Shown here piece after piece: positions 25,053-37,409 of a DNA stretch of 64,000 nt. A model generated the notes under the pieces. It was given only the letters and a program-made list of their open reading frames with translations. It made no database searches and was not told the DNA's origin. The first letter of the stretch is position 1. Each line of letters opens with the position of its first letter. Made by a program: the position numbers and the translations under genes. Source of the DNA: Streptomyces sp. KMM 9044 (GTDB lineage Bacteria > Actinomycetota > Actinomycetes > Streptomycetales > Streptomycetaceae); NCBI RefSeq assembly GCF_024701375.2, contig NZ_CP113910.1, positions 4,898,001-4,962,000 of the forward strand, read 5' to 3'.

Positions 25053-26048
25053 ATGGGCGGGCACGCTGCTCAGCAGGATCCCGACGACCTCGCCGGTGCG
25101 GCGCGGGCGGCGCTGGTGCGTGAGATCGGCGCGGGTGGCGCGTTCGACGCCGACCCGGTGTGGCGGGAGGCGTTCGCGGCCGTCCCGCGCCATCTGTTCG
25201 TGCCGTCCTACTACGTGGGCGTCGTCGGGGGCTACGAGCGGCGGTGGGGCGGGAGCGCCGACCCCCGGGCGCGCGAGGCCTGGCTGCGTGGCGTGTACGA
25301 GGACGTCCCGCTGGCCATCCGGATGCGTGACGGAGAACTGCTCTCCTCCAGCAGTCAGCCGTCCCTCATGGCGGTGATGCTCGTCGAACTGGGCGTCCGC
25401 GACGGCGACCGGGTCCTGGAGATCGGCACCGGCAGCGGCTACAACGCCGCCCTGCTCGCGCACCGGCTCGGGGACGACGACCTGGTCACCACCGTCGACC
25501 TCGACCCGGAGATCGCCGAGTCGGCCCGCCGGCACCTGGACGCCGCCGGTCACCACCCGGTGGTCGTCACCGGCGACGGCGCCCACGGGGTGCCCGCACG
25601 TGCCCCCTACGACCGGATCATCGTGACCTGCGCGCTGCCGTCCGTGCCCGGAACCTGGCTCCCCCAGTGCCGGCCCGGCGCCCGTGTGCTCGCCCCGTTC
25701 GCCACCGGCCTGGTCGCCCTCACCGTGCACGGTCCGACGCACGCCGAGGGCCGGTTCCTGCGCACGCCCGCCTACTTCGTGCCGCTGCGCGGCGCGAACC
25801 GGTCGCGGGGGGTGCCGGCCGGTGCGAGCGACCTGGCCGACGTGCCGCGCCGGGCCAGGGAGCACGACCGGTTCCGGTTCCTGCTGACCCTGACCGCGGG
25901 CAGCGTCGGGGCCCGGGAGGCGTACGACGTGTGGCGGCACGAGGGGAGGCCGCAGCGTGAACGCTACGGACTCACGGTCGGCGAGAAGCACTGCTGGGCA
26001 TGGCTGGACGACCCAGGAGGGCCGCACCGCTGGGTGCTGCCCTCCTGA
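25053..26048 (+). CDS. PCMT-like SAM-dependent methyltransferase
   Basis: A 331-residue protein related to protein-L-isoaspartate O-methyltransferase. The N-terminal substrate part has FAAVPRHLFVPSYY and a loop before the core (LLSSSSQPSLMAVMLVEL, corresponding to the PCMT TISQP motif). The SAM site is RVLEIGTGSGYNAALLAHRL, followed by VTTVDLDPEIAESARRHL and YDRIIVTCALPSVPGTWL. A C-terminal extension of about 100 residues (YFVPLRGANRSRGVP to HCWAWLDDPGGPHRW) is absent from housekeeping PCMTs. Actinobacterial members of this kind often modify precursor peptides or repair proteins. No precursor gene is visible here, so the substrate is open. Confidence 0.88.
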   Translation: MGGHAAQQDPDDLAGAARAALVREIGAGGAFDADPVWREAFAAVPRHLFVPSYYVGVVGGYERRWGGSADPRAREAWLRGVYEDVPLAIRMRDGELLSSSSQPSLMAVMLVELGVRDGDRVLEIGTGSGYNAALLAHRLGDDDLVTTVDLDPEIAESARRHLDAAGHHPVVVTGDGAHGVPARAPYDRIIVTCALPSVPGTWLPQCRPGARVLAPFATGLVALTVHGPTHAEGRFLRTPAYFVPLRGANRSRGVPAGASDLADVPRRAREHDRFRFLLTLTAGSVGAREAYDVWRHEGRPQRERYGLTVGEKHCWAWLDDPGGPHRWVLPS

Positions 26049-26070: not shown

Positions 26071-27453
26071 TCAGCCGCGGCGGATGGTGAGGGTCGTCCA
26101 GGCGCCCACGTGGACGCGGTCGCCGTCCTGGAGCGGGACCGGGACGAACGGCTGAATCGGTTCCTCCCCGCCGTTGACCGTCGTGCCGTTCGTCGAGTTC
26201 TGGTCCACGACCGCCCAACTGCCGTCCGGCTGCTGCACCAGCACCGCGTGCTGGTGCGAGACGCCCGGGTCCTCCGGCGGCGTCGACAGGTCGATGTCGG
26301 GGGTGTCACCGGTGGAGTGGCGCCGACGGCCGATCGTGAGCTGGTTACCGGTGAGGGTGCGCTGCTGCTCGGGCGAGTACGCGGGCAGGTGCAGGCCCGT
26401 GGCCTCGGGGCCGGAGCGGTGCATCATCGCCATGAAGTAGTCGCGGTCCGGACCGATCGTCGCGGTCCAGGTCACCGGACCCCGGGGCTGCTGCGGGAAG
26501 CCGCCGGGACCGGGCGGCGCCTGGGTCGCACCGGGCTGCGGGTAGCCGTAGCCACCGTGCTGTCCCTGCCCGTGCTGTCCCTGCCCGTGCTGTCCCTGCC
26601 CGTGCTGACCGGGGCCGCCCTGGCCGCCACCGGGGCCACCGGACGGCGGGGAGATGACCCAGTCGTCGTCACCGCCGAAGGCGGGACCGCCCTGCGGCGG
26701 CCGACCGGTCTCCTGCGGGAATCCCGGCGGGGCGGGCGGACCGGACCGGTACGCCTGCGGACCGCCGGGGCCGTTCGGACCACTGGGGCCTCCGGGGCCG
26801 TTCGGGCCACCGGGACCCCCATATCCGCCCTGGCCGCCCGGACCGCCCTGTCCACCGTGCGGACCGGGTCCACCGGGACCGTTCGGACCACCGGGTCCAC
26901 CGGGTCCACCGGGACCTCCGTATCCGCCCGGACCGGGCGGCGGCGGTACCGGACGTGAGGGGGCGCCGCCGAAGCCGGGCGGGCCCTGTGGGATCGGCTC
27001 GGCCGGCCGGTTCACCTGGGACGGGCGGGAGCCCTGGTAGTCGTAGGAGTCATCGCCGTTGCCACCGCCGTACGACGGCGGGGGCGGCTGCTGGTACCCG
27101 CCGTGACCACCCGGGCCGCCGGGGCCGGGTCCGCCCGGTCCGGGACCGGCGGGGCGCGGGGCGGCCGGGGTGTACGAGGTCGCCGTGTTCGTCAGGAAGT
27201 TCCACCGGCACTCTTCGCAGAACGGCGCGGCGCCCTCACGCGGCGTGCGGCACTGCGGGCACGGCTCGGCTCTGCCACCGGGGCCGGGACCGCCGGGTGC
27301 CCCGTAGCCGCTCTGGCCGCCGGGAGGAGGGAATCCGTAGCCACCGCCGGGCGGCGGGGGAGGGGGCGGCGGCACGGGCCCCGCCATGCGGTGGCCGCAC
27401 ACCTCGCACCAGTCCTCGGAACCCGACTGGTGTCCGTTCGGGCAGGTCGGCAT
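26071..27453 (-). CDS. FHA-domain protein with two zinc ribbons and Gly/Pro-rich linker
   Basis: A 460-residue phosphothreonine-binding protein. Two N-terminal zinc ribbons: C4/H8 with C16/C19 (CPNGHQSGSEDWCEVCG) and C65/C68 with C79/C82 (CPQCRTPREGAAPFCEEC). A disordered linker of about 250 residues follows with collagen-like GPGGPGG runs and four HGQGQ units. The C-terminal FHA domain (about 370-455) has TIGRRRHS, SHQHAVLV and NSTNGTTVNG, the Arg, Ser, His and Asn of the phosphopeptide site. It is the last gene of the minus-strand signalling cluster, so it is a candidate target or scaffold for the PknG-like kinase. The ATG at 27453 follows a GGAGAGGGGG tract. Confidence 0.88.
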   Translation of the reverse strand: MPTCPNGHQSGSEDWCEVCGHRMAGPVPPPPPPPPGGGYGFPPPGGQSGYGAPGGPGPGGRAEPCPQCRTPREGAAPFCEECRWNFLTNTATSYTPAAPRPAGPGPGGPGPGGPGGHGGYQQPPPPSYGGGNGDDSYDYQGSRPSQVNRPAEPIPQGPPGFGGAPSRPVPPPPGPGGYGGPGGPGGPGGPNGPGGPGPHGGQGGPGGQGGYGGPGGPNGPGGPSGPNGPGGPQAYRSGPPAPPGFPQETGRPPQGGPAFGGDDDWVISPPSGGPGGGQGGPGQHGQGQHGQGQHGQGQHGGYGYPQPGATQAPPGPGGFPQQPRGPVTWTATIGPDRDYFMAMMHRSGPEATGLHLPAYSPEQQRTLTGNQLTIGRRRHSTGDTPDIDLSTPPEDPGVSHQHAVLVQQPDGSWAVVDQNSTNGTTVNGGEEPIQPFVPVPLQDGDRVHVGAWTTLTIRRG

Positions 27454-27534
27454 GTCGGCGCTTCCCCCTCTCCTTGTCCGGTCGCTTCCGACCGAAGTTC
27501 TCCGGCCCACAGGCCAGGCTCGTTCAGTTCAGTT

Positions 27535-28905
27535 TCACTTCTTTACACGAACAGTCTTGGTGGACCGGGTTTCGAGTGTCATCTCGTCGGCCTCCTCGAC
27601 CCTCGCTTTCAGTCGCACAGTACCGGTCGCGGCGTCGACGACGTCCACCACCTTCGCAAGCAGTTTCGCAGTATCGGCGTTGCCGGAGGCACTCGCGAGC
27701 TGAACGGCCCGGCCCAGTTTGGACGTTGCTCCATCGAGATCGCCCGCTTTGCGAAGGTCGAGACCCTGTTGGATGACTTGCGCCAGTTCGGCCTGCCCGG
27801 TGTAGTGGGCGACCTGGGGGTTGATCGACGTCGAGGCGGCCGTGTCCTCCGTCCACACGGCGCGCACGAGACCCTGCGCGCCGAACTTCCGGACACCGTC
27901 CGCGCCGCTGCCGGCCGAGGCGCCGGCGGGTTGCGGGATGACCAGCGAGAGCCGGGCGGCGAGCATCTCCTGCCCCACGTCGGCGGCCGGGACCTCGACG
28001 CAGACGTGGTAGTCACGGGACTCGTCGCCCCAGGAACCCAGCGGGTAGTCGCCCGCGCGGGGGCCGGCCTCGGTACGCCGCCCGGTCATTTCCTCGACCG
28101 TCGGCGCGACCTGTTTGACGAACTTCACCGTCGCGCCCAGCGGGGTCCACAGCCGCAGAACGACGTCCGCGACCTCCTTGCCCATCGCCGTCTCCATCAT
28201 CCGTGTGAAGTCGTCGGCGAGTCCGGCCGGATCGGCGACGATGTCGGCGCTGCCGAGGAGACCGGAAGCGATCGCTGTGACTTCTTTCACTTCCCAGTCG
28301 GTGCCCACGCCACGGGCGTCGCAGGTGAAGCGTCCGGCGCACGCCTGAAGGGTCGCCTCCAGATCCTCGGGCGACTCGTGCTCGTTGCGCCCGTCGGTGA
28401 GCAGGATGCCGTGCCGGATCGCCACGTCCGCCGACGCGAGCAGCCGGTCGGCCAGCTTCAGCCAGGTGCCGATGGCGGTGCCCCCGCCCGCGCTCAGCGT
28501 GCGCAGCGCCCGCTTGGCCTGCTCGCGGGTGGCGGCGTCGGCCGCCGCGAGCAGGCCGGCGCCGGGATAGACCTCCTTCGCCACATGCGTGCCGCCGACC
28601 ACCGCGAAGTGCACGCCGTCGCGCAGGACGTCGACCGCGGCGGCCGTGGCGTCGCGGGCGTTGCGCATCTTGGCCGGCGGATAGTCCATCGAGCCGGAGC
28701 AGTCGACCATGAGCACCACGGCCGCCGACGGCCCCTCCCCGGGTGCGTAGAGGCGAGGGGCCGCCACCGCGCTGCCGATGGTGCCGCCGCCGGTCGCGGT
28801 CACCGTGACGATGGCGTTGACCTCGCGGCCGCCCTCCGGCAGGTACTCGTTCTGGTACACGTCCACCGAGAACCGCGGCACGTTCGACTTCGCGAAATTG
28901 GCCAT
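27535..28905 (-). CDS. VWA-domain protein
   Basis: A 456-residue cytoplasmic protein. After VPRFSVDVYQNEYLPEGGRE comes a von Willebrand A domain: MIDAS motif VLMVDCSGSMDYPPAKM (DxSxS near residue 68), the Thr in LSAGGGTAIGTWL and the Asp in ILLTDGRNEH, so metal binding should be intact. A beta-rich middle part and a C-terminal helical segment resembling TPR (AQVIQQGLDLRKAGDLDGAT, KLGRAVQLASASGNADTAKL) follow. No signal peptide. VWA proteins of this type assemble with PP2C phosphatases and kinases in TerY-P-like triads. The neighbours here fit that pattern. Confidence 0.9.
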   Translation of the reverse strand: MANFAKSNVPRFSVDVYQNEYLPEGGREVNAIVTVTATGGGTIGSAVAAPRLYAPGEGPSAAVVLMVDCSGSMDYPPAKMRNARDATAAAVDVLRDGVHFAVVGGTHVAKEVYPGAGLLAAADAATREQAKRALRTLSAGGGTAIGTWLKLADRLLASADVAIRHGILLTDGRNEHESPEDLEATLQACAGRFTCDARGVGTDWEVKEVTAIASGLLGSADIVADPAGLADDFTRMMETAMGKEVADVVLRLWTPLGATVKFVKQVAPTVEEMTGRRTEAGPRAGDYPLGSWGDESRDYHVCVEVPAADVGQEMLAARLSLVIPQPAGASAGSGADGVRKFGAQGLVRAVWTEDTAASTSINPQVAHYTGQAELAQVIQQGLDLRKAGDLDGATSKLGRAVQLASASGNADTAKLLAKVVDVVDAATGTVRLKARVEEADEMTLETRSTKTVRVKK

Positions 28906-29049
28906 GCCTGTTTCTCTCCCCCTGGAGAACCCCGACGAACGGGGCGACGACAGAAGGCGGACCGGTCCCCTCCGGTTCGCCTGTGCTTGTCCGCAGCTCT
29001 TCTGCGGTTTCCCTGTACTTTCCCCGTCAAGGGCCTGCCGTACGCGGCC

Positions 29050-30555
29050 TCAGGCCGATCCTGCCCCCTGCGGCACGGCCGGGAACGGGACGAGGGCCAC
29101 TGTTACGTTGTCGTGGCCCCCGCCGTCGAGAGCGTGACCGACCAGGACCCGCGCGCCGTGCAGCGGGCGGACGGCCGCGTCGGCGGGGACGGTCCTGGCC
29201 ATCTCCTCTGCCGACTCCGCGTAGTTCCACAGCCCGTCCGTGCAGACCACGACCACTCCGGGCCGGTCCGGTTTGAACGACGCGGTGTGCGGGTCGAGTT
29301 CGTACGCGTCGGCGCCGAGCCAGCCCGTGATCGCGTGGGCGCGCTGGTCGGCGTACGCCTCGGCCTCGCCCATCAGGCCCGCGGCGACCATCTGCGCGGC
29401 CCACGAGTCGTCCTCGGTGAGCCGGGCCGGGGGCGCGGAGCGGTCCACCGGGACCCAGTAGACACGGCTGTCGCCGACCCAGCCGACGACCAGCAGACCG
29501 TCCGTCACCACGGCGCCGACGAAGGTGCAGGCCGGGGAGTTCTGGTGCGGGGCACGCTCCCGTTCCGTCTCGGGCTCGTCGGCCAGCGCGTTGACCGCCT
29601 CCGACGCGGCGATGATCGCCTCGTGCATCGCCTGCTGCGGGTGCGTGCCGCGCGGCAGGGCCGCGAGCAGCGACTCGCTCGACGCCCGGGACGCGGCCAG
29701 CGAGGCATCGTCGGGCCGGGTCGCGGAGGAGACGCCGTCGCAGACGATCGCGACGCAGGCGGGGGAGCCGTCGGGCAGTGTGGTGGTGCCGATGCCGAAG
29801 GCGTCTTCGTTGCGGTGGTGGCGCAGGCCGCGGTCGCTGACCGCAGCCAGCGGGCCGCATTCCTGTTCCATGTGGTCCCGTTCGCGTGGCTGGGCGTGGC
29901 CACAGTTCTCGCAGTAGCCGTCGTCGTCCACCCTGCCCGCACGACAGGCCACGCACACGGTGCCCCCCGGAGCCGCCGAACTCTCTTCGGCACCCTGTTC
30001 GGAGGCCACGCGCGGGTCCGGGGCCTGGAGCGGGTACTCCTCGGGCTGCCCGGCCGTCGGCTCGGCGACCGGCTGGGCCGGGCGGTCGAAGCGCACACCG
30101 GAGGGGCGGGGAGCCCCGGCGGGGGGTGCCGGGGGTGCGGGCGGGGGCGGAGGAGCGGGGGCGGAGTGCTGGGGGTGGGGGTGAGGACGGGGACCGCCGG
30201 TCAGCGGCAGGCCGCTCGAGCCGGTGCCCGCCAGGTCCGCGGGCCGGTGCGTCGGAGCGGACACGCCGGAACCGTCCGGGCCGGCGGTGGGCCAGCCCGG
30301 CCCGTCCGGCGCCGGACGGGCCACCGGAGGCGCGGCCGGAGGCCGGGGCACCCCGCGCTCCGCCGGACTCGGCGACGGCACCGAGCCGCTCCCGCCGCTC
30401 CCGGCGTTCATGGTGATCGTCGGGTGATCCGTCGGCGGTGCCGGGACGGCTGACAGGTCGTATCCGCACGCACCGCAGAAACGGTCACCCGACTCGAGGG
30501 GTTCCTCGCAGCTCGGGCACTTCGACAGGGCGGCCTGCTGGGGCATCTGCGACAT
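29050..30555 (-). CDS. PP2C-family Ser/Thr phosphatase with two zinc ribbons
   Basis: A 501-residue protein. First zinc ribbon at C13/C16/C27/C30 (CPSCEEPLESGDRFCGACG), a Pro-rich linker of about 150 residues, second ribbon near 200-217 (CVACRAGRVDDDGYCENCG), then the PP2C domain (about 228-500). Metal-binding and catalytic motifs: SDRGLRHHRNEDAFGIG, VAIVCDGVSSATRPD, VGWVGDSRVYWVP, VVVVCTDGLWNYAES and GGGHDNVTVALVPF. It dephosphorylates Ser/Thr and is the natural counterpart of the kinase whose stop codon lies 3 bp upstream of this start region (TTG-ATG; ATG at 30555 chosen). Confidence 0.92.
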   Translation of the reverse strand: MSQMPQQAALSKCPSCEEPLESGDRFCGACGYDLSAVPAPPTDHPTITMNAGSGGSGSVPSPSPAERGVPRPPAAPPVARPAPDGPGWPTAGPDGSGVSAPTHRPADLAGTGSSGLPLTGGPRPHPHPQHSAPAPPPPPAPPAPPAGAPRPSGVRFDRPAQPVAEPTAGQPEEYPLQAPDPRVASEQGAEESSAAPGGTVCVACRAGRVDDDGYCENCGHAQPRERDHMEQECGPLAAVSDRGLRHHRNEDAFGIGTTTLPDGSPACVAIVCDGVSSATRPDDASLAASRASSESLLAALPRGTHPQQAMHEAIIAASEAVNALADEPETERERAPHQNSPACTFVGAVVTDGLLVVGWVGDSRVYWVPVDRSAPPARLTEDDSWAAQMVAAGLMGEAEAYADQRAHAITGWLGADAYELDPHTASFKPDRPGVVVVCTDGLWNYAESAEEMARTVPADAAVRPLHGARVLVGHALDGGGHDNVTVALVPFPAVPQGAGSA

Positions 30556-30558
30556 CAA

Positions 30559-33417
30559 CTACACCCACGTCCGGGGGCGGTAACGGTTGGCACGTTCCAC
30601 CAGGTCGATCCTTTCCTCACCGCTCCGCGCCAGCCGGGCCAGCGTGCGGTACGAGCGCTCGAGTCCGAAGCGCAGGTCCCGCTCGTCCAGTCCGTTGCCG
30701 AGCAGTGTCCGTCCCCCGGCGGCGGCCCGCTGCCCCCGTCCCGGCTGAGCCGGAAGCGGAAGCGGAACGGAACCCTGGCCCCCGGAGAGTACCCAGTCGA
30801 GCGCGCGGCCGAGGACCTCGACCGCCAACTGCTCCCGGCGCGCCGGGTCCAGACCGTACGAGTCCAGGGCCTCGACCTGGTCCGCCGCGGCACTCAGGTC
30901 GTCAAGGAACGGTACGTCACCCGTGGTCGTGGCCGGCCCCCGCAGCCGGGCGCGTACGGCTGCCACCCGCGCGGCCGTGTAGTGGATCGAGGACTCCGGC
31001 ACCGACTCCAGCGTCCGTACGGCGCCCCGCCGGTCGCCTGTGGCGAGGCGTACCCGGGCCAGGCCGAACGCCGCGCTCACATGGCTCGGGTCGGTGGACC
31101 ACACCAGGCGGTAGTACTCGGCCGCGTTGTCGAGCTGGCCCAGCACCTCGGCGCACAGGCCGAGCGCCAGCTTCGGCGCGATCTCGCCGGGGAAGGCGTC
31201 GTAGATCGCGTCGAAGGCGAGCGCGGCGCCCTCGTGGTCGCCGGTGACCAGGGCGGCGACCCCGCGGTACCAGACCACCCGCCAGTCGTCGGGGTCCTGC
31301 TCCTCCAGGGTCCGCAGCGCGGCCAGCGCGTGGTCCGGCTCGCCGGTCTCCAGCCAGGCGCGGACCTGCCGCAGCCGGGTCTCGGCAGACGGCGCGGGCG
31401 CCGCGGCCAGGGCGTTGACCAGCTCCGCGGGCGCGGAGGCCGGCAGGCCCGCGAGGAAACCGGCGTTGGGGTCGGCCGGGTCGACGTGCGGGACGGGCAG
31501 CGCGAGCGCCGCCGCGGCGGTGTCGACGGGTCTGACGAGACCTCCCGGGGCGGTGCCCGAAGAAGCACCCGGGGACACGGAGGCGCCCGGCTGTCCGCCC
31601 GCCGCGCCCCCGCCCGGCCCTCCGGGAAACCGCTCGGGTCGCGCGCCCCGCGTCAGCCGCTTCGGCCGGACGCGTCCCGGCCCTCCTCGGGGTACCGCCC
31701 GCGCCCCCAGCCGGGACACGTCGCCGTACGGCCGGGGGAACAGCTCGGTGTCCGTCGCCCGCAGTTCCGGGCCGAACAGGGTCGACAGGGCAGGACGGGC
31801 GTGGCCCGACTCAACCGAGACGACCTCGCGCAGGACGCCGGTGAGCTGCTCGGCCATCTCCCGCGCGGAGGCGAACCGGCGGGCCGGGTCGGGGTCGGTG
31901 GCGCGCACCAGCAGCCGGTAGAACGACTCGTACCTGCGGAAGACGTCGATGTGGTCCGGGTCGGGCAGAGAGTCCGCGTAGACGGTCGTGTAGCCCTGGA
32001 AGTCGAACGTGAGGACGGCGAGCGTACGGGCGACCGTGTACAGGTCGGAGGCGACCGAGGGGCCGGCCCCGGCGACCTCCGGGGCCTGGTAGCCGACCGT
32101 GCCGTAGATGGCCGACCGGTCGTCGTCCACCCGGCGCACCGCGCCCATGTCGATCAGCTTGAGCTCGTCCTCGGTCTGGATCGCGTTGTCGGCCTTGAAG
32201 TCGCAGTACAGCAGGTTGCGGGAGTGCAGATGACCCAGCGCCTCGAGCGCCTCGATGCCGTACGCGCACGCCTGCTCCACCGGCAGCGGGTCCCGCCTGC
32301 CGTCCGGTGTGCGGCGGCCGTTGGCGATGTCCTTGAGGGCCTTGCCGCCGACGTACTCCATGACGATGTAGCCGTCCAGCGAACCGGTGCGCTGGTCGAG
32401 ATGCTCCACGAAGTTGTAGATCCGCACGATGTTGGCGTGCTCGATCTCCGCGAGGAAGCGCCGCTCGGAGATCGCCGCCTCCATCGCGTCCTGGTCGCCC
32501 GTGTCCAGCAGGCCCTTGAGGACCACCCAGCGTTCCGAGACCGCCCGGTCCACGGCGAGGTAGATCCAGCCCAGGCCGCCGTGCGCCAGGCAGCCGACCA
32601 CCTCGTACTGGCCGTGCACCACGTCACCGGCCCGCAGCTTCGGGACGAACGAGTACGGGTGGCCGCACTTGGTGCAGAACCCCTCGGTGCGGCCCGGCCG
32701 GCCGGCCCGTGCACGGCCCACCCGGGCCCCGCAGTCCGAACGCGAGCAGAAGCGCTTGCGCTCCGGCACCTCGGGGGTGTCCAGGACCATCGCGCGCGGG
32801 TCGGGCCGCGGGATCGGCGGGACCTGGACCAGCCCCGCGCCCAGCCGGCCCCGGCCGGAGGAACCGCCGGCGGACCCGGAGCCGCGCACCGACACCGAGC
32901 GCTCGGCCCTCCCGCCCGCAACCGAGCGGGAGAGCCGCCCGGGCACCGAACGCCGTGACTTCGCCGACTGCGACGTCCTGTCCGACGACGTACGCGAACT
33001 GCGGCCGCCGGAACGGGAACGGCCGGCCGAGCCGTGTGAACCGCGCGACTCCCGGCCGCCCGCGGTGACGCCGGTCGGGACCGAGCCGACCGTGCCGACC
33101 GTGCCTTCCCCAAGCTCTCGGCTGCGCTCGAGCAGGGGGGACCCCAGTGAAGACACGACCGGGGCGAGCCCGCAGGTGTCGCAGTACAGCTCGCCGCCGC
33201 CGACGTCCTCGTAGGCGCCCTCGCAGCCGGGACGCTGACAGGCACGGGGCGCCGCAGCGGCGGCCTGCGACGACCGCGCCTGCTGCTCCCCGGTCCCGTT
33301 CCGTCCGCCGGTCCCGCTCCGCTCCCCCGAACCACCGTCGGGCCCCTGGGACCGGCCCTGACGGTGTGTCCGGTTCTCCGCCCGGCTCATGCGCCCGCCC
33401 TCCCCCTCGTCGCTCAT
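30559..33417 (-). CDS. pknG: PknG-like Ser/Thr kinase with zinc ribbons and TPR
   Basis: A 952-residue soluble kinase. Zinc site 1 at C60/C65/C79/C82 (CQRPGCEG..LYCDTCG), a Ser/Arg-rich linker, zinc site 2 near 222-248 (FCSRSDCG..GFCTKCG) corresponding to the PknG rubredoxin-like module, and a kinase domain from about 265: YEVVGCLAHGGLGWIYLAVD, WVVLKGLL (ATP Lys), VMEYVGG hinge, LLYCDFKADNAI catalytic loop, LIDMGAVRRVDD in place of DFG, and YGTVGYQAPEVAG. A C-terminal TPR region (720-930) follows, as in mycobacterial PknG. In mycobacteria PknG phosphorylates GarA to control 2-oxoglutarate flux in response to GlnX/GlnH. The start at 33417 overlaps the previous stop as ATGA. Confidence 0.92.
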   Translation of the reverse strand: MSDEGEGGRMSRAENRTHRQGRSQGPDGGSGERSGTGGRNGTGEQQARSSQAAAAAPRACQRPGCEGAYEDVGGGELYCDTCGLAPVVSSLGSPLLERSRELGEGTVGTVGSVPTGVTAGGRESRGSHGSAGRSRSGGRSSRTSSDRTSQSAKSRRSVPGRLSRSVAGGRAERSVSVRGSGSAGGSSGRGRLGAGLVQVPPIPRPDPRAMVLDTPEVPERKRFCSRSDCGARVGRARAGRPGRTEGFCTKCGHPYSFVPKLRAGDVVHGQYEVVGCLAHGGLGWIYLAVDRAVSERWVVLKGLLDTGDQDAMEAAISERRFLAEIEHANIVRIYNFVEHLDQRTGSLDGYIVMEYVGGKALKDIANGRRTPDGRRDPLPVEQACAYGIEALEALGHLHSRNLLYCDFKADNAIQTEDELKLIDMGAVRRVDDDRSAIYGTVGYQAPEVAGAGPSVASDLYTVARTLAVLTFDFQGYTTVYADSLPDPDHIDVFRRYESFYRLLVRATDPDPARRFASAREMAEQLTGVLREVVSVESGHARPALSTLFGPELRATDTELFPRPYGDVSRLGARAVPRGGPGRVRPKRLTRGARPERFPGGPGGGAAGGQPGASVSPGASSGTAPGGLVRPVDTAAAALALPVPHVDPADPNAGFLAGLPASAPAELVNALAAAPAPSAETRLRQVRAWLETGEPDHALAALRTLEEQDPDDWRVVWYRGVAALVTGDHEGAALAFDAIYDAFPGEIAPKLALGLCAEVLGQLDNAAEYYRLVWSTDPSHVSAAFGLARVRLATGDRRGAVRTLESVPESSIHYTAARVAAVRARLRGPATTTGDVPFLDDLSAAADQVEALDSYGLDPARREQLAVEVLGRALDWVLSGGQGSVPLPLPAQPGRGQRAAAGGRTLLGNGLDERDLRFGLERSYRTLARLARSGEERIDLVERANRYRPRTWV

Positions 33418-34760
33418 GCGCCGGATCCCCCACGCTCCTCGGACGCGCCCCGGCCCGGCGGGCCGGGCACCCGGGGCTGCGTCGTGCCGAGGAGTTCGAC
33501 GGCGGCGTGCTGGTAGCGCAGCACCGCCTCCGCGGCGGCCCGCAGGTCGCAGGGCGCGCTCCACAGCATGCGGCGCGCCTTCTCGTACCGCTCGGCCAGC
33601 ACGGTGTCCTCCGCGCGGCCGTGCCGGGCCACCTTCGCCTTGTACGCGTCGAGCCGGCCGCGCAGCTCGGCGCGGATCGCCAGCGGCGCGGTGACCGCGG
33701 TCAACGACTCACGGGCGCGCACCAGTTCGTCCTCCGCCTTCTGCTCCAGGGAATCCAGGAGCGGGGACAGCCGGTGCCACTGGGCGTGCCTGCGGTACCC
33801 GGCGGCCGTCGCCAGCTGCTCCTGCAGCACGGTCGGCGGGCCGCTGACGACCGGCACCTCCGTCGCCGCGATCTTCGCGAGCACCTCGACGCGCGCCGTA
33901 CGTGCCTCGGCGAGCGTGCGGTCGGCGCGCGAGAGGACGTCCCGCAGCCGCACGATCCGCTTCTCGGAGTCCTGGCGGACCGCGAGCACCGCGTCGATCT
34001 CGCGGCGCACCTCCTCCAGGGCGCGCGCCTCACGGTCGTACACCGTCGTGTCCGGCCGGCCGCCGCCCGGCGCCGAACTGCCCTCCAGGGGCTTCCAGAA
34101 GGCCAGCGGGTCACAGATCACCTGCTCGCGCAGCCGGGTCAGGGTGCGGGTGATCCGCTCCAGGTCGTCGCCCGCCGGGTGCTCTCCGGGGCGGACGCCG
34201 ACGGGATGGGCGAGCCTGCGGGTGCGCTGGAGCTCGGCGGCCAGTAAGTCGATCCGCGCGGGCAGCGCCGACCACACCGCGTCCGCGGCAACGATCATGT
34301 CCAGCGAGGACGCGTACAGCTCGTTCATCAGCTCGACCAGCGTGGCCAGCGCGTAGCGCTCGCCGAGGCGGCCCGCGCGTCCGTGGAGCGCCGGCGCGTT
34401 CGCGGGGACGGTGGCCGGGCCCGGGAGCATGACGCACTCGCCGCGCAGCAGTTCCGTCAGCTCCACGAGGTCGTCGTGGCTGGACCAGCGGCGCCGGGCG
34501 CGGATCTCGCGGGCGGTGCGCAACGCGCCCGAGTACGCGTCGAAGTACGTCCACAGCAGCGTGATCGACGCCTCGGTGGCCTGCCAGCGCTCCTCGGTAC
34601 GGCCGGTGAGGCGGGCGCCCTCCAGGAGTCTGCGGCCCGCGTGGTCCTGCAGGGCGAGGAGCGAGGTCTCGACCGCCTCGTGCTCCGCGCCGAGCCGCGC
34701 GAGCGCACGGTCCACCTCGTCCCGGTCCATTACCGGCCCGGTGGGATCCGTGTCGCCCAT
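33414..34760 (-). CDS. Helical protein of the PknG cluster, unknown function
   Basis: A 448-residue, mostly alpha-helical cytoplasmic protein. Long heptad-like stretches include LARLGAEHEAVETSLLALQD, LTRLREQVICDPLAF, ALEEVRREIDAVLAVRQDSE, RIVRLRDVLSRADRTLAEA and LLDSLEQKAEDELVRARESL. No known domain, signal or membrane segment. It is translationally coupled to the kinase (ATGA overlap) and sits between the GlnH-like sensor and the kinase, a slot absent from the mycobacterial operon. A linker or adaptor between membrane sensor and kinase is a reasonable inference. GAGAGG lies 7 bp before the ATG. Confidence 0.75.
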   Translation of the reverse strand: MGDTDPTGPVMDRDEVDRALARLGAEHEAVETSLLALQDHAGRRLLEGARLTGRTEERWQATEASITLLWTYFDAYSGALRTAREIRARRRWSSHDDLVELTELLRGECVMLPGPATVPANAPALHGRAGRLGERYALATLVELMNELYASSLDMIVAADAVWSALPARIDLLAAELQRTRRLAHPVGVRPGEHPAGDDLERITRTLTRLREQVICDPLAFWKPLEGSSAPGGGRPDTTVYDREARALEEVRREIDAVLAVRQDSEKRIVRLRDVLSRADRTLAEARTARVEVLAKIAATEVPVVSGPPTVLQEQLATAAGYRRHAQWHRLSPLLDSLEQKAEDELVRARESLTAVTAPLAIRAELRGRLDAYKAKVARHGRAEDTVLAERYEKARRMLWSAPCDLRAAAEAVLRYQHAAVELLGTTQPRVPGPPGRGASEERGGSGA

Positions 34761-34851
34761 CGATCACCTCTCGCTGCGGGACGGTCGTTGACGTTCGTGA
34801 GGAGCTCTGCGTTCTGCGGGGCCCGTGGGCCGAAAAGCGACGGTCGGTCGG

Positions 34852-35907
34852 TCAGCTCGCGCGCAGGTACTGCGGTGCCGGTGGTTCGGAACTCCCCGGA
34901 TCCTTGCCCAGAGTCTGGGAGAGCCAACGCTCGTACGAGGTCCGCCATCCGTCCGTGGTGTCCTCGCGGAAGTCCACCAGGATCCGGTTGACCCGGCGGA
35001 CCAGGTCGTCCGCGTCGGCCTTCATCGCCACGCCGTAGTACTCGGTCGTGAAGGAGCCGCCCTTGAGCTCGACCGTCGGGTCCTGCGCGGCCTGGCTCGC
35101 GGCGAGCGCGGCGTCGGTGACGACCGCGTCGACCCTGCCGAGCTGCAGCCGTACCAGGCAGTCGAGCTGGTTGGGGACGGTGGTGCGGATGTCGACGGAC
35201 TGCGGGAGGGCGCCTCTGGCCTTGTCCTCCTCCAGCGTCGTGAACGCGGTGGAGCCCGCCGCCGTGCAGACCTTCCGGTCCGCGAGCGTGGGGCCGTACC
35301 CCTCGACCGGGGACTCCTTCTGGGCCAGCACCTGCTGTCCGGTCCTGAAGTACGGGGCGGAGAACGCCACGTCCTTCAGGCGGTCGCAGGCGATCGTCAT
35401 GGTGCGGACCACCATGTCGACCCGGCCGCTCTCGATCGCCGGGATGCGCTGGTCGGTGGGGATCGCCTTGAACTGGACCGCGTTCCGGTCGCCGAGTATG
35501 TCCTCGGCGATGCGGTGCGCCAGGTCGATGTCGAAGCCCTCGAGTCCGGAGCTCCCCCGGCTGTTGGGGTCGCGGTAGCCCCAGCGGTAGCTGTTCTGGT
35601 CCACGCCGACCATCAGCTTGCGCTTCTCGCCCTCGCGGGCCCTGATCCCGTCGATCGTCGGGCCGTCGTCCCCGGAGGGGGTCAGGGTCTGCTTCTCCGG
35701 ATCGTCGCACTCCTCGGCCGCCTTCGCACCCGCGGCGTCCGTCACGGCCCGGCCGGCGCTCCCCGGCTCCTTGCCGCCGGCCTTGGAAGAGGATCCGGTC
35801 CTGGTCAGTACCAGCGCGAAGACCAGCACGAGCGCGCAGAGGGTGGCCATCGCGCCCACCCCGCCCCAGCCCCGCAGCCCGGTCCGCAGACGTCGTACGT
35901 TCCTCAT
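34852..35907 (-). CDS. glnH: GlnH-like amino-acid-binding protein
   Basis: A 351-residue periplasmic-binding-protein family 3 member. The N-terminus has a hydrophobic export or anchor helix (GVGAMATLCALVLVFALVLT) without a clear lipobox Cys. The ligand domain shows LMVGVDQNSYRWGYRDPNSR, LEGFDIDLAHRIAEDIL, VQFKAIPTDQRIPAIESGRV, DMVVRTMTIACDRLKDVAFS and VVTDAALAASQAAQDP. In mycobacteria GlnH binds Asp/Glu/Gln and signals through GlnX to PknG. No ABC permease or ATPase gene is present, which supports sensing over transport. A strong GGAAGGGGG precedes the ATG. It starts 18 bp after the glnX-like gene ends. Confidence 0.87.
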   Translation of the reverse strand: MRNVRRLRTGLRGWGGVGAMATLCALVLVFALVLTRTGSSSKAGGKEPGSAGRAVTDAAGAKAAEECDDPEKQTLTPSGDDGPTIDGIRAREGEKRKLMVGVDQNSYRWGYRDPNSRGSSGLEGFDIDLAHRIAEDILGDRNAVQFKAIPTDQRIPAIESGRVDMVVRTMTIACDRLKDVAFSAPYFRTGQQVLAQKESPVEGYGPTLADRKVCTAAGSTAFTTLEEDKARGALPQSVDIRTTVPNQLDCLVRLQLGRVDAVVTDAALAASQAAQDPTVELKGGSFTTEYYGVAMKADADDLVRRVNRILVDFREDTTDGWRTSYERWLSQTLGKDPGSSEPPAPQYLRAS

Positions 35908-35924
35908 CGCGCCCCCTTCCGCTC

Positions 35925-37409
35925 TCACCGGTACTCCGACAGCCTGCGCCCGACGCCCAGCACCGTGCCCGCCGCACCCAGCACGGCGAGGCCCGCGGAG
36001 CCCTGCGGGAGGCCCGTCAGGGCGTCCCGGCCACCGGTGGCCGCCTCCTCGAACTCGTGCCTCTCGTGCGTCAGCGCCGCGGCCAGGTTCTCGTCGACGC
36101 CGGCGAAGCACTCGCCGGTCGCGCCCTCGCCGCCGATCACCAGGTCCAGCGCCTGCTGGTAGTTGCCGCTCTCGTCCTGCTCCCGGGCGGCGTCGTGGCG
36201 CTTCCTCCATTCCGTCATGTTGCTCACGGCGGCGGCGACGGGCTTCCCGCCGGCGCTGTCGTCCGCGAGTTCACCGGCCCGGGCCAGACCCTTGTCGAGG
36301 GCGGCCATGTCACGCCGGAAGTCGTGGTCGTAGGCGTCGTACGTCTCGTCGCCGACCTTCTTCGTCTCGGCGCCGCGGGCCACCAGCGTCAGGTTCTCGT
36401 TGCCGCGGGCCTTCAGGGACGCGATCCGGGCGTCGTGCAGCACGCCGAGCGAGCGGACGCCGTGGTCGTAGGAGCCGTTCAGCCCCGAGCGGGCGAGGCT
36501 GTGACCGACGACCAGCCAGAGCAGCACGACCGTCGCCGCCGTCGTGGCCGCGACCAGGCCGTGGTTGAACACCCGGCGGGTCCGCAGGTACATACGGCGC
36601 TGCACCCGGGCGAGCGCGGCGAGGACGACGACACCGAGCGCGATCGCGGCCCACGGGTAGGGGGTCGCGTCCGCGTAGTCGGCGTCGAGACGCCGGGCCT
36701 CCTTCTCGTAGAGATCCTCCGCCGCCGGGAGCATCTCCTCCTGCATCTTCTCGTTCGCGTACCGCAGATAGGCGCCCCCCACGGGGTAGCCCTGCCGGTT
36801 GTACGTACGGGCCCGCTCCACCAGGCCCTTGTACTCGGGCAGCAGCCGGTTGAGCTCGGTGATCGTCGCCGCGGACGAGGAACCCGGCTCGGAATGGGCC
36901 GCGGCGCCCACGAGTTTGCCGGCGGCGGTGCGGATGCCCTTCTCGTAGCTGTCCCGGGAGGCGGCGGTCTCCTGACCGCCGGCCAGGAACCCGCTGGAGG
37001 CCGCGGTGTTGGCGTCCGCGAGGGAGCGGTAGATGTCCGCGGCGTCCGAGGCGAGCGGCTCGCTGCTGGTGAGGACGTCGTCGGCGGCCGTGGCCCGGTC
37101 GGACATCTGCCAGGCGGCGACCGCGCCGAAGGCGACGAGGAGGGCCGCCAGGACTGCGCCGATGATCCTGAGGCGGCCGGGTTCGGTGGCGGCGGCCCCG
37201 CGCAGACGGACGACACCCTCGGCGAACGCCGTGCGCCGTGGTGCCTCCGGCTGCCGCCGGGACGCGAGGGGCCGAGAGCCGCCGCCGGTTACCTGCCGCG
37301 GGGCCGGGGCACCGCCCGGCCCGGACTGCGGCGGTACGGCGGGCAGGGCGCCGGTCGAGGGCACGGCCGCACCCGGCGGCGCCGCGCCACCTCTCGGCGT
37401 GTGGGTCAC
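35925..37409 (-). CDS. glnX: GlnX-like membrane signalling protein
   Basis: A 494-residue integral membrane protein. A Pro-rich cytoplasmic N-terminus (about 75 residues) is followed by TM1 (RIIGAVLAALLVAFGAVAAW, about 80-100), an extracellular helical domain (LTSSEPLASDAADIYRSLAD, FLAGGQETAASRDSYEKGIR), TM2 and TM3 (WAAIALGVVVLAALARV near 255 and AATTAATVVLLWLVVGHSLA near 290), a second helical domain, and a terminal hydrophobic segment (LAVLGAAGTVLGV). This matches GlnX of the mycobacterial GlnX-GlnH-PknG operon, which relays GlnH occupancy across the membrane. GTG at 37409 has GGGGGAGG 6 bp upstream. It is probably the first gene of the operon. Confidence 0.82.
   Translation of the reverse strand: MTHTPRGGAAPPGAAVPSTGALPAVPPQSGPGGAPAPRQVTGGGSRPLASRRQPEAPRRTAFAEGVVRLRGAAATEPGRLRIIGAVLAALLVAFGAVAAWQMSDRATAADDVLTSSEPLASDAADIYRSLADANTAASSGFLAGGQETAASRDSYEKGIRTAAGKLVGAAAHSEPGSSSAATITELNRLLPEYKGLVERARTYNRQGYPVGGAYLRYANEKMQEEMLPAAEDLYEKEARRLDADYADATPYPWAAIALGVVVLAALARVQRRMYLRTRRVFNHGLVAATTAATVVLLWLVVGHSLARSGLNGSYDHGVRSLGVLHDARIASLKARGNENLTLVARGAETKKVGDETYDAYDHDFRRDMAALDKGLARAGELADDSAGGKPVAAAVSNMTEWRKRHDAAREQDESGNYQQALDLVIGGEGATGECFAGVDENLAAALTHERHEFEEAATGGRDALTGLPQGSAGLAVLGAAGTVLGVGRRLSEYR

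Follow-up and report, generated by a model that had tools for sequence, protein, structure and literature searches.

A conserved seven-gene locus of Streptomyces may extend the GlnX-GlnH-PknG pathway by a linked phosphatase and a candidate reader pair

Does PknG signaling in actinobacteria involve more linked components than a sensor and a kinase? PknG controls the 2-oxoglutarate node, and the order GlnH-GlnX-PknG-GarA/OdhI has been published for mycobacteria and corynebacteria. The question is raised by a locus of Streptomyces sp. KMM 9044 (genome size 7.43 Mb), which lies in a stretch of 64,000 nt of contig NZ_CP113910.1, in the following called the window. Positions 26071–37409 harbor seven intact open frames, all on the minus strand, in the order GlnX, GlnH, a helical protein (HEL), PknG, a PP2C phosphatase, a VWA protein and an FHA protein. 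Translation, Pfam and NCBIfam bore out these genes and their order, as given in a first-pass annotation. The seven genes form one conserved unit. Nearly all copies retain the catalytic residues and the residues binding phosphothreonine (pThr), so the unit is most naturally read as a write/erase/read module, and at the level of modules we are confident of a writer-eraser-reader system around PknG.

A class sample of 246 genomes gave PknG_TPR matches in 95 genomes, in 93 of them above the cut-off. We scanned 80 PknG regions of up to 20 kb, chosen by hand and not comprising all matches, with iterated profiles. All seven genes were present in 39 regions, and PknG, PP2C, VWA and FHA occurred together in 50 regions from seven family codes. 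This four-gene set was found in 23/23 regions of f1, the genus of the window; among these, L025 is decayed, and L023 and L015 have the kinase and the helical gene, respectively, in two frames. It was also found in 11/18 regions of f74 (near Nocardiopsis and Actinomadura), 8/14 of f75, 5/5 of f7 and the single regions of f70, f80 and f90. None of the 11 regions of f3 (Mycobacteriaceae), the two of f94 and the four second Streptomyces copies had the set; some misses (L052, L055, L069, L078) are regions cut by contig ends. The usual order in f74 is HEL-PknG-PP2C-VWA-FHA-GlnX-GlnH, so the linkage outlives a rearrangement. A second sample of 80 named loci was retrieved with the VWA alignment and is not independent, because its loci are from Streptomyces or close kin. 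Seven genes in the same order on one strand were found in 55 of the 56 named loci with full flanks; the exception, L193, had PP2C-VWA-FHA only. The nearest named VWA relative, from S. hirsutus, is 94% identical. A conserved gene neighborhood was found in both samples and supported that the seven genes are one unit. In the decaying Streptomyces cassette L025, the PknG, GlnX, GlnH and VWA matches were fragmentary, and HEL, PP2C and FHA had normal scores.

By Pfam, the kinase comprises PknG_TPR, PknG_rubred and Pkinase domains; the Pfam scan gave no family for GlnX or for HEL. GlnX exceeded the cut-off of the NCBIfam subfamily NF058618 (250 bits; Table 1) and was below that of the equivalog NF041460 (kinase G-activating; 179 bits, cut-off 780). 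The best solved structures by sequence were M. tuberculosis GlnH (6h1u, 142 bits) and M. tuberculosis PknG (2pzi, 533 bits). GlnH residue R147 was kept in every ungapped row, and T162, R169 and D250 in nearly all Streptomyces rows; the contacts to the Asp ligand are those listed in PMC6069109, which, like all publications below, is cited from excerpts. W232 is Gln in 22/24 f1 rows and Trp only in f3 (9/9) and f94 (1/1). By sequence, GlnX, GlnH and PknG are indeed closely related to their mycobacterial counterparts, with a GlnH that keeps most, not all, Asp contacts. The catalytic Lys, Asp, Asn and Asp of PknG were kept in 80/80 aligned rows, the metal-binding Asp of PP2C in 56–57 of 57, the MIDAS residues of VWA in 52/54 (gaps in the remaining two) and the pThr-binding Arg, Ser and Asn of the FHA protein in 53–54 of 54. 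The AlphaFold2 model of HEL, for which 29 sequences were aligned, was confident and helical (pLDDT 90.7) and gave no informative structural match. HEL is perhaps the link between sensor and kinase that the first-pass annotation saw in it; it is not indispensable, because it is missing or very divergent in f7 and f90.

The intergenic gaps from GlnX through FHA are 17, 91, −4, 3, 144 and 81 nt. Upstream, 385 nt separate GlnX from the next frame, and the neighbors are BadF-type ATPase and GH4 frames. Downstream, a PCMT-type methyltransferase frame (25053–26048, plus strand), possibly part of a peptide-modification locus, is convergent with the operon. Given these flanks, the unit appears to consist of the seven genes listed in Table 1.

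Table 1. Genes, zinc ribbons and C-terminal tail of the locus, in window positions.
Feature	Position	Strand	Basis
GlnX, signal-transduction membrane protein, GTG start	35925..37409	-	NCBIfam NF058618, 490 bits
GlnH-like solute-binding protein	34852..35907	-	SBP_bac_3
HEL, 448-aa helical protein, no known family	33414..34760	-	no Pfam/NCBIfam match; AlphaFold2 model
PknG-like Ser/Thr kinase: N-terminal ribbon, rubredoxin-like domain, kinase, TPR	30559..33417	-	PF16918 (289 bits), PF16919, PF00069
PP2C phosphatase, two N-terminal ribbons	29050..30555	-	PP2C_2 and Zn_Ribbon_1 (Pfam)
VWA protein with MIDAS residues, 4FX5 homolog	27535..28905	-	VWA_3/VWA and VWA_3_C (Pfam)
FHA protein, two N-terminal ribbons, Gly/Pro-rich linker	26071..27453	-	PF00498, 60 bits
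PknG N-terminal ribbon CQRPGC..YCDTC	33172..33240	-	ribbon pattern
PknG rubredoxin-like ribbon CSRSDC..CTKC	32665..32748	-	ribbon pattern and Pfam
PP2C ribbon 1	30466..30519	-	ribbon pattern; Zn_Ribbon_1 above cut-off
PP2C ribbon 2	29902..29955	-	ribbon pattern
FHA-protein ribbon 1 CPNGHQ..CEVC	27397..27444	-	ribbon pattern
FHA-protein ribbon 2 CPQC..CEEC	27208..27261	-	ribbon pattern
VWA C-terminal Thr tail DEMTLETRSTKTVRVKK	27538..27588	-	alignment and locus comparison

With an N-terminal zinc ribbon, a linker and an FHA domain with pThr-binding residues, the FHA protein is built like the reader ArnA. It did not qualify as GarA (19 bits for NF041660, cut-off 200). The host has a separate GarA-like protein (L002, 919–1734, C1:6470470 region), which reached 185 bits, just under this cut-off, and was assigned to GarA on the basis of an FHA match and an ETT motif. 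A zinc ribbon is located just before the ETT motif. Many other actinomycetes also have this GarA ribbon; in the six genomes of Mycobacteriaceae that were examined it was absent. ArnA of Sulfolobus consists of a zinc finger, a linker and an FHA domain. Its binding partner is the vWA protein ArnB, which is phosphorylated in its C-terminal domain; two of the ArnB phosphopeptides contain IETT, and the phosphorylated domain is read by the FHA domain of ArnA. In the cocrystal the zinc finger of ArnA is seated on ArnB, at its beta-sandwich and its C-terminal domain. The marks are erased by PP2A, and the interaction drops on starvation (PMC6509490, PMC12852372, PMC7472852).

The only strong PDB match of the VWA protein was 4FX5 from Catenulispora (457 bits, residues 5–456, tail included); a sequence search with E up to 1 gave 4fx5 and a weak 4rck only, and no archaeal chain. 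In the excerpts, the ArnB authors of 2019 noted that 4FX5 shares the three-part fold, likening it to ArnE/ArnB, and the authors of 2026 assigned it to a group of which most members play no part in such phosphorylation. The gene neighborhood suggests that the 4FX5 family does take part in it. The literature excerpts searched contained no functional description of 4FX5 or its family. PF18571 (VWA_3_C) has one copy in the genome, in this VWA protein, and was absent from 14/14 control genomes.

The C-terminal tail is the candidate phosphoacceptor of the VWA protein. In 65 of the 80 named loci the protein terminates exactly in DEMTLETRSTKTVRVKK. In these loci the column identity of the 17-residue tail is 0.984, compared to 0.839 for the whole protein (rank 4 of 440 windows of this length). 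Codon pairs from 73 loci differed synonymously in 15,969 and non-synonymously in 550 cases. D440, L444, S448 and T451 are invariant across 18 diverse VWA proteins. The strict motif L[DE][TA].S[TV].T was present in 47/53 VWA proteins of the census (not in L061, L067, L068, L086, L087 and L088) and in 0/3,416 other frames of at least 200 aa, spurious frames included. At its start, DEMTLET.S, the tail is similar to SDEVTVETTSVFRADFL, a mycobacterial GarA peptide that was used as PknG substrate (PMC8546545). For the 10-residue GarA core, the VWA tail was the best match in the window frames (score 31, next 23, 80,684 positions). We consider it plausible, with a probability slightly below even, that PknG targets the VWA tail and that the FHA protein reads it. 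In second-type PknG loci of two Streptomyces (L140, 7540–11221; L141, 8061–12179), the kinase is followed by a VWA protein with ESTKTARRP or DSTKTVAPR and then a C-terminal ribbon.

A ribbon pattern search found two Cys-rich ribbons each in the kinase, PP2C and the FHA protein, as the first-pass annotation had claimed, and the second ribbon of the kinase turned out to be the known rubredoxin-like domain of PknG (PF16919). As a further correction, a His is probably among the ligands of ribbon 1 of the FHA protein (CPNGH..CEVC). The linkers are long and Gly/Pro-rich, as judged by eye. In the 80 regions, leaving aside the window, decayed L025 and the second copies L091–L094, the FHA protein had two ribbons in 45/53 cases and one in 8, and PP2C two in 50/56 and one in 6. 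PknG outside f3 had three, two, one or no ribbons in 11, 36, 15 and 2 of 64 cases, and PknG of f3 had one in 11/11. In the whole host genome, Zn_Ribbon_1, a family that misses other ribbon types, was above cut-off at two places, PP2C ribbon 1 and GarA. For the proposal that the ribbons are docking modules, ArnA on ArnB is a solved precedent; our own tests, given below, weakened its simple version. The ribbons could instead sense metal or redox state and thereby gate the circuit. The rubredoxin-like domain is said to be the sole element modulating the intrinsic activity of PknG, and a title cited in the same source mentions its Fe-S center in M. tuberculosis (PMC8546545). Considering the solved ribbon docked on a vWA protein, and that the ribbon type which only PP2C and GarA share in this genome fits docking at least equally, we regard gating by the ribbons as improbable.

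Taken together, the data are compatible with an extended GlnX-GlnH-PknG pathway with a membrane sensor, PknG as writer, PP2C as eraser and an ArnA/ArnB-like reader pair; in our judgment this proposal is evenly poised. Ligand-bound GlnH would act via GlnX on the TPR domain of PknG, perhaps together with HEL. Active PknG would phosphorylate the unlinked GarA and, as we propose, the Thr tail of VWA. The FHA protein would dock by its ribbons and bind the phosphorylated tail or the N-terminus of PknG, and PP2C would reset the marks. Of the complete phospho-circuit of the first-pass annotation, the conserved unit with its catalytic and pThr-binding residues stands, and the phospho-steps joining the parts are what we infer from it.

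Several observations weigh against this extended pathway. All steps that would join PP2C, VWA, FHA and HEL to PknG are deduced from the genes. For the 17-residue GarA peptide the VWA tail ranked only 3 of 78,325. With the GarA motif of the host itself it ranked 261 of 80,347 (score 13), and the GarA resemblance is therefore suggestive, no more. T446, which aligns with Thr21 of GarA, is Ala in f75 rows, and the peptide STKTVR was not found in the searched literature. We had predicted that the GarA ribbon exists only where the cassette exists. This was rejected: the ribbon is distributed more widely and was present in 11 of 21 GarA genomes without PknG match (22 genomes, picked for lacking PknG, of which 21 gave a GarA). 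It was present in all six cassette genomes searched alongside. In a first set of 30 genomes, GarA had the ribbon in three genomes without PknG (G460, G256, G257) and in one with a decayed cassette (G342). The ribbon was lacking in two genomes without PknG (G192, G198), in G435, in six Mycobacteriaceae and in G262, which has the cassette.

Also on the negative side, VWA is missing from the f74 cassettes L056 and L060 and left as a 32-bit remnant in L051; the genomes of all three gave no PF18571 match, yet their PP2C and FHA proteins keep two ribbons each. VWA as an obligatory ribbon hub is weakened, because some cassettes have no intact VWA. That these cassettes keep FHA and PP2C would fit an FHA protein that reads autophosphorylated PknG, like the FHA domain of GarA in mycobacteria, and serves as kinase adaptor. 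VWA would then be a separate MIDAS-type binding partner, its tail kept for another reason, e.g., as a binding motif. In two genera the N-terminal pThr of PknG recruits FHA substrates (PMC8546545). The tail is, however, rich in Ser/Thr and one of the best-conserved parts of VWA, and ArnB is a precedent for its being read, so we consider this alternative as a whole unlikely.

Further counterevidence comes from four second Streptomyces PknG copies that have no PP2C, no FHA and, by this profile, no VWA alongside and from PP2C-VWA-FHA triads without PknG in f75 (L128–L130, L134, L135). Together with the position of GlnX-GlnH at the other cassette end in f74, these triads would be expected if a GlnX-GlnH-PknG sensor and an independent triad traveled as two modules, co-transcribed without direct cross-talk. 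Against such a combination, the genes stayed linked through the f74 rearrangement, and their linkage extends over seven family codes. Moreover, the f75 triads L131 and L132 adjoin HEL and a much lower-scoring PknG-like kinase without PknG_TPR match. Independence of the two modules appears quite improbable to us.

In Mycobacteriaceae, 9/11 f3 regions hold only GlnX-GlnH-PknG and 2/11 only PknG. A full seven-gene cassette was present in Mycobacterium L133 (sp. Y57 by 100% match), in addition to other PknG_TPR matches in that genome; the named members among the 120 best relatives of its VWA are mostly Mycobacterium or Mycolicibacterium. In a quickly built PknG tree (59 rows, after prior removal of five partial rows and another 20; root not fixed, long branches flagged), L133 was the sister lineage of the remaining eleven f3 kinases (SH-aLRT 99). 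This fits an operon that was reduced on the way to the mycobacteria; a duplication or transfer would also be possible. Tentatively, and well short of an even chance, PknG signaling may at its root be a seven-part circuit with an ArnA/ArnB-type reader, a detached GarA-like phosphotail on the vWA protein and a dedicated PP2C. The three-gene operon of mycobacteria would have arisen from it by loss of parts, and nutrient signaling in archaea and actinobacteria would share one ribbon-FHA/vWA design.

To our knowledge, no linked phosphatase or reader is known for the published three-gene pathway. The first-pass annotation had taken the circuit as undescribed. This does not apply to GlnX-GlnH-PknG, the conservation of which, Streptomyces included, is in print (PMC6069109). 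For the other four genes, the literature excerpts searched (subscription journals mostly missing) contained no PP2C, VWA, FHA or HEL beside PknG among the matches listed. As far as our searches go, the locus extends a known pathway in a conserved and apparently undescribed way. With an eraser and a reader pair linked to the kinase in dozens of named Streptomyces genomes, it offers deletable candidate components, testable for missing parts of the pathway of tuberculosis bacteria, as well as a candidate phosphoacceptor motif and a testable function for the 4FX5 family. In Saccharopolyspora, a phosphoablative GarA doubled the erythromycin titer (PMC12321487).

Among known systems, TerY-P triads have adjacent kinase, PP2C and vWA genes, and this adjacency is shared here. 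The first-pass annotation saw a merger of GlnX-PknG and TerY-P designs, of which only the former half held. The kinase is a PknG, the VWA protein groups with 4FX5/VWA_3_C, and TerY-P membership was not supported, as TerY_C was not above cut-off anywhere in the genome (best 12.8 bits against 28.4, outside the locus). Actinobacterial GAP1-N2 neighborhoods likewise combine a ribbon-fused kinase, PP2C and a standalone vWA protein (PMC7159879, section 29). This similarity would be expected if the locus, like TerY-P or GAP1-N2 systems, served in stress or conflict and had borrowed its PknG. Besides the results on TerY_C and VWA, no GAP1 or Ter family was named in ten scanned neighboring frames, and GlnX/GlnH are not mentioned in the excerpt of that section; a stress or conflict system is very improbable. 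Like ArnA-ArnB, the locus pairs a ribbon-linker-FHA protein with a vWA protein that has Thr sites towards the C-terminus and the three-part fold shared by 4FX5 (PMC6509490, PMC12852372, PMC10470591). It differs in two ribbons instead of one, in a tail at the extreme C-terminus, in the linked PknG and sensor and in a PP2C instead of PP2A, and its VWA is not tied to archaeal chains by sequence search. With the GlnX-GlnH-PknG-GarA/OdhI pathway of Mycobacterium and Corynebacterium it shares GlnX, GlnH, the PknG domains and a GarA-like ETT protein encoded elsewhere. It differs from this pathway in the Gln at W232 of GlnH, the ribbon of GarA, the extra N-terminal ribbon of PknG and the four extra linked genes.

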